In this document: positions 7,986-47,802 of the stretch, one piece after another
Position numbering within the stretch: position 1 is the first letter of the stretch
Layout: each line of letters begins with the position of its first letter
Source of the DNA: Dehalobacter sp. DCA
GTDB taxonomy: Bacteria; Bacillota; Desulfitobacteriia; Desulfitobacteriales; Syntrophobotulaceae
Direction: 5' to 3'
Length of the DNA stretch: 64,000 nt
Assembly (NCBI RefSeq): GCF_000305775.1
Contig: NC_018866.1
Location: forward strand, 1,488,001-1,552,000
Notes under the pieces: generated by a model
Databases searched by the model: none
The model's input: the letters and a program-made list of their open reading frames with translations, nothing else
Told to the model about the DNA's origin: nothing
Translations under genes and position numbers: made by a program

Positions 7986-8993
7986 TTAATTGATCATCAA
8001 CCAAAAGGCGCTAACTCCAATCAACGTGAAGATGGCTGCAGCCAGCCAAAAAACGCGTACAACCTTTTTTTCGCTCCAGCCGCCCAATTCAAAGTGATGG
8101 TGCACCGGACTCATCCGAAATATCCTCTTCCCCCTGGTCTGAAAAGAAACAACTTGAAGAACAACGGACAGACCTTCCAGGACAAAGACCCCGCCGAGAA
8201 TTAGCAAAACAAATTCACTCTTGCTGAGGACCGAGACCGCAGCCAACGCTCCGCCCAGAGCAAGTGATCCACAGTCGCCCATAAAGATCCTGGCCGGGTG
8301 GATGTTAAACCTTAAGAATCCCAGACAGCCTCCCGCAATGGCCGCGGCAAAAACCGCGAGGTCGCTGGAAGAAACATCGATGCCGTCAATAAATCCTGTC
8401 CGCGCAGCCAGATAAGCAATGCCGACATAGCCGACAGCTGAAATAACTGTACAGCCTGCGGCCAGTCCGTCCAGTCCGTCTGTCAGGTTAACCGCATTGG
8501 ACATATACACCACAATAAGTATGACCAGCGGATAATAGAAAATCCCTAAATCTATTTCCAAAGCAGTGAACGGAATATCTACCGCTGTACCCCTACCAAG
8601 GTACAGGGTGGAAACTCCGACTAATATCACCGCAAGCAGGATTTGCCCGGTCAGTTTCTGCCATGCTCGTAAGCCAAGGTTCTGCTTCCTAATTACTTTT
8701 AAAAAATCATCTAGAAAACCAAGCAAGCCAAAGCCCAAGGTCACAAGGAGCATGGTTATTATTCCGGGTGAATAAGGTTTTTCCGCAATAATCAGCACCC
8801 CGGCTGTAATTCCAATTAGAAATATAAGTCCGCCAATCGTCGGTGTCCCGGCCTTGGCAAGATGCCGTTTGGGGCCATCTACCCTGATACTTTGACCAAA
8901 TTTTAACGTACGCAGAACCGGAATCAAAAAAGGTCCCGCCAGAAGACTTACCAGCAGGGCAATTCCTGCCGCCAAATAGATTTTTTCCGTCAC
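7986..8993 (-). CDS. mraY: phospho-MurNAc-pentapeptide translocase (MraY)
   Basis: Integral membrane enzyme that moves phospho-MurNAc-pentapeptide to undecaprenyl phosphate, forming lipid I. The 335-residue protein has about ten hydrophobic segments. It carries the family signatures [27 protein letters not shown] (catalytic Asp) and [10 protein letters not shown]. The GTG at 8993 is preceded by AAAGGAAC. The 426 bp between it and murF is unusually long for this cluster and is filled by two copies of the 105-bp repeat. Confidence 0.96.
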
Positions 8994-9041
8994 TTCCCGA
9001 ATGTTCCTTTCTTAGCCTTGATAATTGAATTATTGGGGCAG

Positions 9042-9146
9042 GTCAGCGAGCCACAATACCGCTTTTCGGCCGTTGTGCCCTCCGTGGCACAAACGTCCGC
9101 GCTCCGCATCCATGCTCCGCTTGACGCGGAACTGTGGCTCGCTGAC
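9042..9146 (+). repeat. 105-bp structured repeat, copy A (forward)
   Basis: Exactly 105 bp, beginning GTC and ending GAC. A perfect 14-bp outer stem (GTCAGCGAGCCACA with TGTGGCTCGCTGAC) encloses an inner stem TTGTGCC/GGCACAA (near 9073-9092) and a third stem TCCGCG/CGCGGA (near 9096-9130). The core shares CCGCTTTTCGGC and TGCTCCGC blocks with the copies at 9300, 47422 and 47698. No plausible coding sequence runs through it. It lies in the mraY/murF gap and forms an inverted pair with copy B. Confidence 0.9.
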
Positions 9147-9299
9147 TGATCACCGGAGATAATAGACGTATTTGGGACCAGTTCAAGATGCTTTGTAGTT
9201 CTTTGCTTCAAAGAAGTGCTATGCTTGATACCTATTTGCCTCAGCGTGTAAGCGGTGGTATGAAACACCTGAAAGAAATGCTTTCATATCTTGTAATTA

Positions 9300-9404
9300 G
9301 TCTGCAGGCCACAGTTCCGCGAAAAGCGGAGCACGGATTGCGGAGCGCGGCATTTGCGCCATGGATGGCGCAATTCGCCGAAAAGCGGTATGTGGCCTGC
9401 AGAC
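9300..9404 (-). repeat. 105-bp structured repeat, copy B (reverse)
   Basis: Exactly 105 bp and inverted relative to copy A. Its outer stem is a perfect 14 bp (GTCTGCAGGCCACA with TGTGGCCTGCAGAC), and the stem sequence differs from copy A while remaining complementary. The inner stem is TTGCGCC/GGCGCAA, a compensatory change from copy A's TTGTGCC/GGCACAA. It is separated from copy A by 153 bp with no recognisable gene, and it ends 15 bp before the murF stop. Confidence 0.9.
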
Positions 9405-9419
9405 AGACCCGAGAAGAAT

Positions 9420-10829
9420 TCACTCTTCACGCTTCAAAGCAGCGCTTACGCGCTCCATCCGCATGCCGCGAGATCCCTTGACAAGAACCCAGACATTACT
9501 GCCCATCTCCTCTATAAGCGTCTTTGCCACAGAAACGGCTTCAGTGCATTCGCTGCAAACATGAATGCCAGAGGCGGGAAAACCTGCCCCAGAGGCTCCC
9601 TGCGCAATATCTTCAGCCATTTTGCCAACTGTGATCAGTGTGTTGATCCCCAGCTCCGCTGCAGCCCGGCCGACATCCTGGTGACCAGTAACGGCAGAAT
9701 CTCCCAATTCATACATCTCACCCAGTACTGCGATCGTTTTTGCCCCTCCCCTTTCAGCCAGCACGCGCAGTGAAGCTTTCACGGAGGTAGGATTGGCATT
9801 ATACACGTCATTAATGATCGTACTCCCAAAAACGCCCTGCTGAATCTCGAGCCTCATTTTGGACAGTTCCAGTTCTTCGAGTGCTTTGGCTCCTTCAGCC
9901 AGGGATACCCCTTTGGCCAGTCCAACACTCAAAGCCGCTAGTGCATCGAGTACATTGTGCTCTCCTGGCAACGGGAGGCGAACCTCAGCTCTGTCCTCTC
10001 CGGATACAACTTCAAAACACGTCGTTAGCGTCCCGGAGCTGTGGATATTGACAGCATAAACATCTGGAGACGCATATTTACCGGAAATCCCGTAGAAGAC
10101 TTTTTTCACATCAGCAGCGGCTGCCTTGTTGACACTGAACGCATCCTCCGCATTCAGTACGGCTATGCCTCCTTCCGACAGAGCAGCAACCAGTTCCCAT
10201 TTGGCCTTCGCAATATTCTCCTGTGATCCTAACAGCTCCAAATGTGTTGTCCCGATATTCGTGATCACAGCAACCGAAGGGCTGCAAATATCGCAAAGGG
10301 CCCTAATCTGCCCGAGTCCGCGCATTCCCATTTCCAGAACCATGATCTCGGTTCCTGCCGGTGCATTCAGGATGGTCAGCGGCAGCCCGATCTCATTATT
10401 GTGGTTTTCCAGATTTTTATGGACCTTAAAGCTTTTGGCAAGTACGGCAGCCGTCATATCCTTGGTCGTAGTTTTGCCGCAGCTGCCGGTAATCCCAATG
10501 ACCACAGGATCAAGCGTTTCTCTCCACGCTCTGGCTAAATCCTGCAAAGCCAGCAGTGTATCCTTTACAGCAATGATTGCTTTGTCGGCAGGTATGACTG
10601 GAAGGCCGTATTCCTCCAGGCTTCGTGTTTCTGCCAGTGCAATCGATGCCCCGCCTTGAAAGGCTTTATTGATAAATAAGTGTCCGTCGGTCTTTTCTCC
10701 GCGGATCGCAGCAAACAATACTCCCTCAGAAGCTGCTCTGCTATCAATGACACACCCCTTGAAATATGTGGATGCTGATCCGTAAAGTTTGCCGCCGAGA
10801 ATTTCCGCCATGGTACCACTATTCCACAT
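9420..10829 (-). CDS. murF: UDP-MurNAc-tripeptide D-Ala-D-Ala ligase (MurF)
   Basis: Mur ligase that adds D-Ala-D-Ala to complete the pentapeptide precursor. The 469-residue protein has the CVIDSR N-terminal motif, the P-loop GITGSCGKTTTKD, ENHNNEIGLPLTIL and a C-terminal region with NDVYNANPTS. I start it at ATG 10829 (MWNSGTMAEILGG), which overlaps the murE stop by 11 bp. The upstream in-frame extension of 15 residues lies wholly inside murE and was rejected. Confidence 0.95.
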   Translation of the reverse strand: MWNSGTMAEILGGKLYGSASTYFKGCVIDSRAASEGVLFAAIRGEKTDGHLFINKAFQGGASIALAETRSLEEYGLPVIPADKAIIAVKDTLLALQDLARAWRETLDPVVIGITGSCGKTTTKDMTAAVLAKSFKVHKNLENHNNEIGLPLTILNAPAGTEIMVLEMGMRGLGQIRALCDICSPSVAVITNIGTTHLELLGSQENIAKAKWELVAALSEGGIAVLNAEDAFSVNKAAAADVKKVFYGISGKYASPDVYAVNIHSSGTLTTCFEVVSGEDRAEVRLPLPGEHNVLDALAALSVGLAKGVSLAEGAKALEELELSKMRLEIQQGVFGSTIINDVYNANPTSVKASLRVLAERGGAKTIAVLGEMYELGDSAVTGHQDVGRAAAELGINTLITVGKMAEDIAQGASGAGFPASGIHVCSECTEAVSVAKTLIEEMGSNVWVLVKGSRGMRMERVSAALKREE

Positions 10830-12297
10830 AACCCAATCTCCTAAGAACTTTATCTGCTTCTTCCCGGTCATCAAAATGTATTTTTTCCGTGCCTAGAATC
10901 TGATAGTCTTCATGTCCTTTGCCGGCGATAAGTACCGTGTCCCCGGAACCGGCTGCCGTACAGGCTTCGTCGATCGCACTGCAGCGGTCTTTTATCACCT
11001 TGTAATTGGCTGATTTAAGCCCCGGAATAATATCTTCAATAATTTTATCAGGATCTTCAGTCCGGGGATTATCCGAGGTTACGACAATATAGTCGCTAAA
11101 ACGGCCGGCGGCTTCTCCCATGAGCGGCCTTTTTTTTCGGTCCCTGTCACCGCCGCAGCCAAATACTGTGATCAGCTTTCCAGCAGTGATTTCTCTGGCC
11201 GTACGCAAAACATTTTCCAGGCCGTCCGGTGTATGTGCATAATCGACAATAACTAAAAAAGGCTGGCCTTTGCGAATACTCTCAAATCTGCCCGGAACCC
11301 CTTTGATACTGTGAAGCGCTTGCACCACAATCTCAGTCGGATATCCGCTTTCCAGTGCCCAGGCAATTGCGGCCAGAACATTGTAAACACTAAATTTACC
11401 AGGGGTACTATAAAAAATCTCGGCGCTTTTCCCGTGAAAAATCACGTCAAATTCAACACCTCTGTCTGAAAGCCGGATATTCACAGCCCGGTAGTCCGCC
11501 TCGTGGTCAACACCATACGTGACTGCCCTGCAACCCGCCTGTTCTTTCAGAAAGACACAGGAGACGTCGTCAGCATTGAGCACAGCCAGCTGGCCGGCTT
11601 TTCCGCCGTTCAAGCCGGAGAAAAGTAGCGCTTTCACTTTGAGGTATTCCTGCATATCCTTATGGTAATCCAAATGATCCTGTGTCAGATTGGTAAAAAT
11701 CCCGGCATTGAATACACAGCCATTGACTCTTCCCAAATCGAGTGCATGCGAGGATACTTCCATCACGGCGAGATCCACATTTTCCGCAACCATTTCAGCT
11801 AATAAAAGTTGAATTTCCGTCGATTCAGGCGTGGTATGCTGGCCGGGATACGCATTGTTTCCTATTCTGCTGCCAAGTGTACCGATCAGACCAGTTTTCT
11901 TGCCGCTTTGCTGAACGATCCGCTCAATCAGGTGCGTCACTGTGGTTTTACCGTTCGTCCCGGTTACACCGACAAGTTCAAGCCGGTCGGATGGATTCCC
12001 GAAGACCTCAGCCGCTAAAAAACCCATGGCCTTCCGGGTATCCGTAAATTTAAGCTGGGGTACGGCTAGCGGCAGGAACTCCTCCACGGCTAACGCTGTA
12101 GCGCTGGCCCGGACCGCAGCCTCGGCAAACGCATGACCGTCCGCCTGATAACCTCTAATGCATACATATAGATTGCCTGGAGATACCGTTCTTGAGTCAT
12201 GGGTGATCCCATTAATTACCGTCTGCGTATCTCCAAGCACTTCAACCTGTTTCATACCGTCAATGATTTCCGCCAGCGTTTTTTCAGAACTAGACAT
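10819..12297 (-). CDS. murE: UDP-MurNAc-tripeptide synthetase (MurE), meso-DAP type
   Basis: Mur ligase that adds the third stem-peptide residue. The 492-residue protein has GITHDSRTV, the P-loop VTGTNGKTTVTHL near residue 110, HTTPES and the C-terminal specificity motif DNPRTEDP. DNPR is the known signature for meso-diaminopimelate, so the wall probably carries meso-DAP rather than lysine. The ATG at 12297 follows an AGAGGTG site. It overlaps murF, so the two ligases are coupled. Confidence 0.96.
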   Translation of the reverse strand: MSSSEKTLAEIIDGMKQVEVLGDTQTVINGITHDSRTVSPGNLYVCIRGYQADGHAFAEAAVRASATALAVEEFLPLAVPQLKFTDTRKAMGFLAAEVFGNPSDRLELVGVTGTNGKTTVTHLIERIVQQSGKKTGLIGTLGSRIGNNAYPGQHTTPESTEIQLLLAEMVAENVDLAVMEVSSHALDLGRVNGCVFNAGIFTNLTQDHLDYHKDMQEYLKVKALLFSGLNGGKAGQLAVLNADDVSCVFLKEQAGCRAVTYGVDHEADYRAVNIRLSDRGVEFDVIFHGKSAEIFYSTPGKFSVYNVLAAIAWALESGYPTEIVVQALHSIKGVPGRFESIRKGQPFLVIVDYAHTPDGLENVLRTAREITAGKLITVFGCGGDRDRKKRPLMGEAAGRFSDYIVVTSDNPRTEDPDKIIEDIIPGLKSANYKVIKDRCSAIDEACTAAGSGDTVLIAGKGHEDYQILGTEKIHFDDREEADKVLRRLGYVE

Positions 12298-47421: not shown

Positions 47422-47526
47422 GTCTCCGTAATATATAGCCGCTTTCGGCCGTTGCATCCTCCTTGACGCAAAAGGCCGCGCTTCGCACTCCATGCTCCGC
47501 TGACGCTGGCTATATATTACGGAGAC
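47422..47526 (+). repeat. 105-bp structured repeat, copy C (forward)
   Basis: Exactly 105 bp from GTC to GAC. It has the longest outer stem of the family, a perfect 18 bp (GTCTCCGTAATATATAGC with GCTATATATTACGGAG plus AC). The stem sequence is completely unlike copies A, B and D beyond the GTC/GAC ends, while the core still carries CCGCTTTCGGCCGTTG, CCGCGCTTCGCA and CATGCTCCGC. Located 81 bp upstream of the flhA start, in the flhB/flhA gap. Confidence 0.88.
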
Positions 47527-47697
47527 TTATCTCTGACGCTATCTTTGTTTGGGTATTTCTCCAAGAAGAATGCTGCTTGCGTATTCTCATAGCTTGGAAT
47601 GGATCTACAAACACAATACTCTTCAAATAACTACTAAGCTGATTAGAAAGCATAAACAATCTTCGGGATAAGACTTACATAAGCAATCATAAGATCA

Positions 47698-47802
47698 GTC
47701 TGGGGGCCACAGTTCCGCTGTGAGCGGAGCAGGATTGCGTAGCGCGGCCTTTTGTGCTATGGATGGCACAACGGCCGAAAAGCGGTATTGTGGCCCACAG
47801 AC
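47698..47802 (-). repeat. 105-bp structured repeat, copy D (reverse)
   Basis: Exactly 105 bp, inverted relative to copy C and 171 bp from it. Outer stem of 14 bp with one mismatch (GTCTGGGGGCCACA with TGTGGCCCACAGAC). Its reverse complement is very close to copy A through the core (ACAATACCGCTTTTCGGCC, GTTGTGCC), so the two operon sites hold members of one family. It ends 74 bp before the flhB stop. Confidence 0.9.

Follow-up and report, generated by a model that had tools for sequence, protein, structure and literature searches.

A facing pair of GGA-loop hairpins between murF and mraY of Dehalobacter sp. DCA belongs to a dispersed palindromic repeat family with a conserved fold

The region separating murF from mraY in Dehalobacter sp. 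DCA, located in the 64,000-nucleotide stretch of DNA analysed here (the window), harbours two hairpins in inverted orientation that are members of a dispersed repeat family. The members of this family are present in high copy number, share a conserved fold, are recurrently arranged in facing pairs, decay by deletion and have their cores replaced. As best explanation of these properties we tentatively propose that both arms are copies of a palindromic mobile repeat, which lacks a transposase and carries a structured, protein-binding RNA of about 105 nt. The working molecule would be an RNA read outward from the spacer between the hairpins, which would bind a protein of the CsrA/Rsm kind via GGA motifs in its loops and act in trans as a decoy, as proposed for TwoAYGGAY RNA. 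Its copies would spread as miniature elements mobilised in trans, in one subfamily by an IS630-type transposase. We infer both the RNA function and the binding of CsrA from the fold and from this published look-alike family.

The inverted pair in the mur gene cluster

In the direction of transcription, the pair follows murF and precedes mraY, both of which are encoded on the minus strand (Table 1). Its arms, which a preliminary description had recognised as an inverted repeat enclosing 153 bp, are indeed 81% identical over 112 columns (E 9.1e-20). This match reaches past the arms, to 9153 on the side of A and from 9293 on the side of B, and the limits of the spacer follow if each arm is taken to extend up to the final base of its outer stem. 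The likeness of A and B is not a product of chance, since a search of the own genome returned matches to the arms at many places, with E-values down to 6e-39, and since both are recovered by the covariance model R1 with the scores listed in Table 1, with A and B both being among the 54 rows from which the model was built. The spacer, as previously described, is unique, with no second match in the own genome, where only the arms recur. The suggested folding of the pair into one large structure is possible, as A and B together are predicted to form a single hairpin of -209 kcal/mol as RNA. The promoter-like sequence in the spacer was found once, compared to 0.3 occurrences expected in shuffles, and it is also present in the alignment with the Dehalobacter genomes G002 and G003. 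An intrinsic terminator was not found at the window pair.

Table 1. Positions of hairpins and neighbouring features in the window
Feature	Position	Strand	Remarks
mraY	7986-8993	minus	TIGR00445, 361 bits
Mechanical 92-codon frame	8990-9268
Hairpin A	9042-9146	minus (GGA strand, presumed RNA strand; as murF and mraY)	model R1: 113.8 bits; loops read GGA on the listed strand
Spacer, 153 bp	9147-9299		single-copy in the Dehalobacter sp. DCA genome
Promoter-like TTGAAC-16-TATTAT in spacer	9159-9186	minus, leftward into hairpin A	judged by consensus alone
Hairpin B, inverted copy of A	9300-9404	plus (GGA strand, presumed RNA strand; antisense to murF and mraY)	model R1: 106.2 bits
murF	9420-10874	minus	TIGR01143, 404 bits
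Second pair, hairpin 1, other outer-stem type	47422-47526	minus (GGA strand)	94.9 bits
Second pair, hairpin 2	47698-47802	plus (GGA strand)	103.6 bits

At the orthologous mraY-murF locus, the pair is present in G002 (94% identity over the unit) and G003 (82%) and no copy is found in G004. The spacer is retained throughout in G002 and in its left half in G003, and it was lost in D. restrictus (G001), where the left end of A is fused with the right end of B in a short remnant. Since the pair is common to three species it is old at this site, and it is a long-standing resident of the mur gene cluster rather than a recent insertion. A comparison of this gap between strains had been expected to define the inserted unit from an empty site. 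It did deliver a more distant congener without the element, G004, but its flanks are too diverged to define the exact unit or a target duplication, and the site in D. restrictus is the remnant of a deletion instead of an empty one. At mraY-murF, where no clean empty site was found, the arms are at most candidates for the termini of a small mobile unit.

A fold retained across genera

The model R1 is based on 54 rows picked for diversity from 137 distinct rows and describes a unit of about 105 nt consisting of an outer helix P1, an inner helix P1b, a hairpin P2 and a small hairpin P3. Across these rows, which span several genera, 88.3% of cells pair compared to 73.8% in shuffles, 24 of the 34 base pairs vary on both sides and the covariation score is 0.361, against 0.124 for shuffles and no more than 0.113 for slid controls, with the relatedness of the rows preventing the shuffle counts from being read as probabilities. 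The sequence of the outer helices differs between genera with their pairing kept, and the fold is thus retained across genera while its sequence changes. The linkers surrounding P3 read GCGGAGC and GCGNAGC, for which the consensus fold, being blind to non-standard pairs, shows a 3x3 internal loop. A long form of the hairpin contains an insert with two additional hairpins with the loops ACGGAU and AUGGAU. A 120-nt stretch of the own genome with a hairpin of the CTCCTTACCATCCGTGGCAC type (L021 3800-3921), which is missing in G001 and G003 and partially present in G002, looks like this insert standing alone.

The model also finds the fold in distant genomes, with 27 copies in the Oscillospiraceae genome Pal332_bin15, which is outside the alignment, and 8, 7 and 6 copies in Marinospirillum alkaliphilum, UBA6116 and Dichloromethanomonas, which contribute one alignment row each. 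In the control genomes of Saccharopolyspora, Thiohalocapsa and Ancylobacter R1 found no match, and pattern hits in these organisms are thus attributed to chance. The covariation, the same fold in genomes outside the model and its absence in the three controls argue for an RNA as cargo of the repeat. Dispersed palindromes of bacteria are mostly viewed as selfish DNA of unknown use. The alignment of this family holds enough compensatory change to argue that the fold and its presumed protein-docking loops are kept while the surrounding DNA moves, decays and recombines. Pal332_bin15 contains a high-copy look-alike (L232-L243) with outer ends AATAATATTCTTAT and the same layout of GGA loops, which has little sequence in common with the hairpin.

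Strand preference and putative transcription

On the strand opposite to the model, 53 of the 54 rows have GGA in the P2 loop, 49 have it in the P3 loop and 48 in both. The same strand folds better, with an energy of -83.3 compared to -78.3 for the alignment and an advantage in all five rows that were folded singly, and it contains more G-U cells than the model strand, in a ratio of 63:33 for the 54 rows, of 28:8 for those 43 rows in which 10 or more of the 14 P1 pairs are Watson-Crick and of 37:15 for 47 own hairpins. The GGA loops, the folding energy and the asymmetry of wobble pairs suggest an RNA read from the strand that leads away from the spacer, so that the presumed RNA of A would extend leftward and that of B rightward.

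This direction would also be favoured by a hexamer (TAnnAT) located 8 nt before the RNA unit. For the common outer-stem type, its average agreement with TATAAT over 24 own copies is 4.33 of six positions, compared to 1.91 at other offsets, with T1, A2 and T6 present in 15 of the 24. At the window pair, the site reads TGTAAT in hairpin B and GGTGAT in A, which thus lacks a -10-like hexamer and has the TTGAAC-16-TATTAT sequence of the spacer in its place. Several observations weigh against our best explanation. The hexamers were inherited with the repeat and are therefore not independent, the 24 copies contain no conserved -35 box, a terminator is missing at the window pair, and a csrA gene was not found in the fetched stretches, which constitute a minor part of the genome.

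Relationship to known RNA families

No Rfam family matches the hairpin at cut-off in the loci and the window region compared. The closest is TwoAYGGAY RNA (RF01731), found on the GGA strand of L058 (2559-2440) with 34.2 bits (E 0.042 to 0.12) as single match among 14 different loci and thus short of its cut-off of 43 bits, and it showed no match at E 1 in the region 8000-11000 of the window, which includes both arms. The layout of this family, with two GGA-loop hairpins in a common stem, is present in the repeat, which is therefore built like TwoAYGGAY RNA and remains below the cut-off for membership, for which reason we do not file it as a member. An article by Gardner and Eldai bears on this resemblance. 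In its excerpt, TwoAYGGAY is proposed as CsrA-binding RNA with tandem G-A pairs in one stem as feature, and CsrA-binding motifs are described as occurring mostly in pairs (PMC4333381). This proposal and the match at L058 support an RNA of CsrA-type, whereas the low score, its restriction to one place and the failure of the window arms to reach E 1 count against it.

Weinberg et al. 2010, in the part of the article at hand, list TwoAYGGAY from human gut, gamma-Proteobacteria and Clostridiales as a probable RNA that is not cis-regulatory (PMC2864571), and the Rfam type of the family, cis-reg, is at odds with this table. The repeat described here resembles TwoAYGGAY RNA in the outer helix around two GGA-loop hairpins and in a taxonomic range that includes the Clostridiales and gamma-Proteobacteria named in that excerpt. 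Its long form bears two further hairpins. In contrast to TwoAYGGAY RNA as described in these excerpts, the repeat is dispersed in high copy number and frequently arranged as facing pairs. A link between both would tie an RNA of unknown function to a high-copy repeat of organohalide-respiring bacteria. With decoy RNAs of the CsrB/RsmZ type the repeat shares the presence of several GGA motifs in hairpin loops, but in contrast to these, which are encoded by one abundant gene, it is found in many scattered copies and its partner protein is putative. Two weak matches to the Yersinia sRNA Ysr224, with 22 and 28.5 bits at the window and a Marinospirillum locus, compare to a cut-off of 70. A sub-threshold match to Ysr141 in Gracilibacter BRH_c7a (L139 223-455; 34.9 bits versus 196) is probably due to chance.

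Copy number, distribution and gene context

The genome of Dehalobacter sp. DCA consists of a single contig of 3,069,953 bp, in which arm A as query yielded 46 matches. With R1, 55 copies were found in 34 fetched stretches and the window and one more elsewhere, amounting to at least 56 copies. A scan of the whole genome identified at least 52 copies (with 52 of 53 scored candidates matching) and, with the best 53 candidates scored per genome, at least 47 to at least 53 copies in each of four congeners. The G+C content of the own hairpins ranges from 54 to 67%; that of the D. restrictus genome is given as 44.6% in the excerpt of its description (PMC3910700). Of the 73 genomes of the order, 13 are positive at 1e-4, and the presence of 37 copies in G042 and none in its congener G041 suggests that the repeat either spreads horizontally or is often lost. 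Among 299 genomes drawn from the phylum, at least four were positive at 1e-6 with the best 13 candidates scored per genome, three of them from the genus itself. Collections of plasmid, phage and viral contigs contained no match to the hairpin. At the level of titles and abstracts, and in the portions of the genome papers at hand (PMC3528712, PMC3910700), we found no description of the repeat in Dehalobacter.

Among 40 units placed relative to genes, 22 reside between codirectional, four between convergent and one between divergent genes, and 13 overlap with a mechanical frame of at least 100 codons, a context that is usual for intergenic repeats. Single hairpins with codirectional neighbours are oriented in sense in 8 and in antisense in 11 cases, according to our own reading of the copy and context tables, and this missing strand preference argues against our best explanation. 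It equally counts against a cis-acting element on read-through mRNA, which would affect stability or attenuation or allow hairpin A to control the translation of mraY. Such an element would fit the sense orientation of hairpin A 49 nt before the start of mraY, the predominance of codirectional sites and a predicted capability of A and B to switch from two separate hairpins to a single long duplex and back. We consider it quite improbable, as G001 has lost nearly the whole mraY-murF unit, as G004 is devoid of it and as TwoAYGGAY is listed as not cis-regulatory in the excerpt of PMC2864571, though not in its Rfam type.

Facing pairs, their decay and the exchange of cores

Neighbouring copies less than 400 bp apart in the own genome are facing in 14 cases, tandem in one and never back-to-back. 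The probability of at least 14 facing arrangements among 15 under random orientation is about 4e-8 by hand calculation, if copies are assumed to be independent, and inverted pairing is thus a recurrent and non-random arrangement. Single unpaired copies, which would have spoken against the preliminary description had they been the rule, are not, since 28 of 55 copies reside in facing pairs and several singles are decayed pairs. Close neighbours in fetched stretches of other genomes include eight facing and one tandem arrangement in G001, five facing in G002 and four facing in G003, which are in part orthologous to the own pairs. In other genera, all six neighbours within 300 bp are facing, and one weak tandem was found at 478 bp (Oscillospiraceae). 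The close neighbours in G004, with two facing, two tandem and one back-to-back, are not mainly facing, which weighs against our best explanation. The second pair of the window (47422-47802), which is also paired in D. restrictus, combines two different outer-stem types.

A comparison with G001 illustrates how pairs decay. A pair of the own genome corresponds to a mini-hairpin at L030, to a single copy at L015, where the junction in G001 falls on a short repeat common to the left arm of hairpin 1 and the inner arm of hairpin 2, and to the first hairpin only at L006. At L031, the one hairpin of the own genome is complemented in G001 by the other together with a remnant of the first; L005 (5690) corresponds to a mini-hairpin in G001 and at L027 precisely the hairpin is missing from this genome. 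Pairs were retained in both genomes at L003, L010, L011, L012, L021 (two) and L025 and in the second pair of the window. For this subfamily, the paired state, as read from family-specific flanks and without an outgroup, appears to have come first and many single copies to have arisen from it. The clearest candidate for an exact insertion unit is L002, where 240 nt are missing from G001 at a 4-nt direct repeat, a difference that can equally be an insertion unit or a deletion at microhomology.

In the 14 of 47 listed hairpins that are covered by an alignment between the own genome and G001, 97 of 1470 positions differ, compared to 456 of 7082 in the flanks, and the hairpins as a set thus do not evolve more slowly than their surroundings, which is a further argument against our best explanation. 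Within this set, seven cores are 99-100% identical with flanks that differ by 2 to 11%, and in six cases the core in G001 resembles some other own copy more than its orthologue. The outer helix of these six is closer to the orthologue in two, equal in two and closer to a paralogue in two, and the misplaced cores are most simply explained by replacement from other copies, affecting either just the core or the entire hairpin. Among seven changes on both sides of a pair, five keep a standard pair, one creates and one breaks it.

The same data would be explained if the hairpins were neutral relics, whose compensatory changes originate from hairpin-templated repair and gene conversion between copies without selection. 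The misplaced cores, an overall rate equal to that of the flanks and the frequent deletions of palindromes are in line with such a process. It is nevertheless very improbable in view of the seven nearly identical cores in diverged flanks, the near-invariant GGA in loops across genera in which stems vary, and the wobble pairs on one strand, which would not be expected from templated repair. Tandem duplications of 12-13 nt immediately ahead of the hairpin at L008 (~1505-1541) and L021 (~1490-1527) perhaps originate from slippage at the palindrome.

Our favoured interpretation of a mobile repeat with RNA cargo can be extended to a family of CsrA-type decoys, where a facing pair would constitute a divergent unit of two RNAs with outward promoters in the spacer, which titrates a global regulator and which spreads, duplicates and swaps cores while keeping its RNA. 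Although this specific scenario appears unlikely, it would imply fifty or more scattered GGA-loop RNAs per genome and a regulator sponge as cargo of a mobile element outside Gammaproteobacteria.

Mobility of the repeat

We infer the mobility of the family from one of its subfamilies. In G004, five copies of a unit of about 199 bp, which are 95 to 98% identical and contain the hairpin in the middle, carry the terminal inverted repeat (TIR) CTAGTACAACGTTCT at both ends and TA in their flanks, most of them in CTAG. CTAG with its TA is a typical target of IS630, and the TIRs and TA duplication in CTAG of the G004 subfamily are those of an IS630-type MITE. G004 contains 43 occurrences of the TIR and every other Dehalobacter genome 5 to 7, and all mapped TIR stretches of G004 contain a hairpin match except for L160, where a hairpin remnant is located beside the TIR. 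In a map of the TIR and hairpin sites of G004 and in the frame lists of two lone TIR sites, no transposase was recognised. G004 also holds three identical copies of an IS630-type element (L244 1466-2697, L245 and L246) in CTAG, whose ends CTAGTACAGTGTT have only the part CTAGTACA..GTT in common with the TIR subfamily. An IS630-type enzyme with related ends has likely moved this subfamily, whose presence beside such an element, together with the decay of pairs, argues for a mobile repeat.

The window pair is devoid of these TIR ends, and DDE_3 was not found in Dehalobacter sp. DCA itself (G000), G002, G003, G056, G058 and G042. As these genomes hold many copies, IS630 was rejected as sole mover of the family. 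An autonomous element with hairpin ends was considered at L078, where two facing hairpins are 2.7 kb apart, and rejected as the long frame between them, with its translation read by eye, is asparagine synthetase-like.

The recent and nearly identical TIR copies would also fit a purely selfish miniature transposable element, whose fold matters as DNA, in form of a cruciform or single-stranded hairpin recognised by a transposase acting in trans, and where any RNA is incidental. The patchy distribution in 13 of 73 genomes of the order, exemplified by G042 and G041, the missing strand bias relative to genes and the facing pairs, which might represent protein-bound DNA ends, are compatible with this alternative. 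We still regard it as somewhat unlikely, since wobble asymmetry and GGA loops favour an RNA from one strand, since ends are recognised in the TIR subfamily but not in other pairs and since most hairpin-rich genomes lack DDE_3.

The preliminary description had compared the pair to the BIMEs formed by REP units and mobilised by RAYT enzymes, which share its dispersed intergenic palindromes and inverted dimers, the head-to-head form being the common arrangement of REPs according to the excerpt of PMC3733652. This analogy did not hold, and mobilisation by RAYT appears extremely improbable. The genomes G000, G002 and G003 contain no Y1_Tnp despite as many copies of the hairpin, and this domain shows no association with the repeat in the 73 genomes of the order, occurring in 8 of the 13 genomes with and 41 of the 60 genomes without the hairpin. 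Eleven RAYT-length Y1 loci from five hairpin-bearing genomes contained no hairpin at E 1, and eight of them show short inverted repeats that flank the gene or lie close to it. The form differs as well, since the hairpin, with about 105 nt, a variable outer stem and varying preceding bases, is four to five times longer than REPs, which comprise 20-40 nt with a GTAG/CGTC tag, and is without an associated Y1 transposase.

In their size of about 100-240 bp and their palindromic, intergenic and transposase-free nature, the repeats resemble ERIC and NEMIS/Correia elements, a class whose transcripts form stable stem-loops, as stated in the excerpt of PMC10969869. Unlike these, the family described here has an RNA fold with stems that covary across genera and fixed GGA loops, and its TIRs with CTAG targets are known for one subfamily, to which the window pair does not belong. 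At L197 (~8021-8262), G001 carries a miniature element of another kind, about 240 bp long with TGTAGCCTTACACAGATAT at its ends, which is missing at the corresponding site of the own genome (L009 1657-1662).
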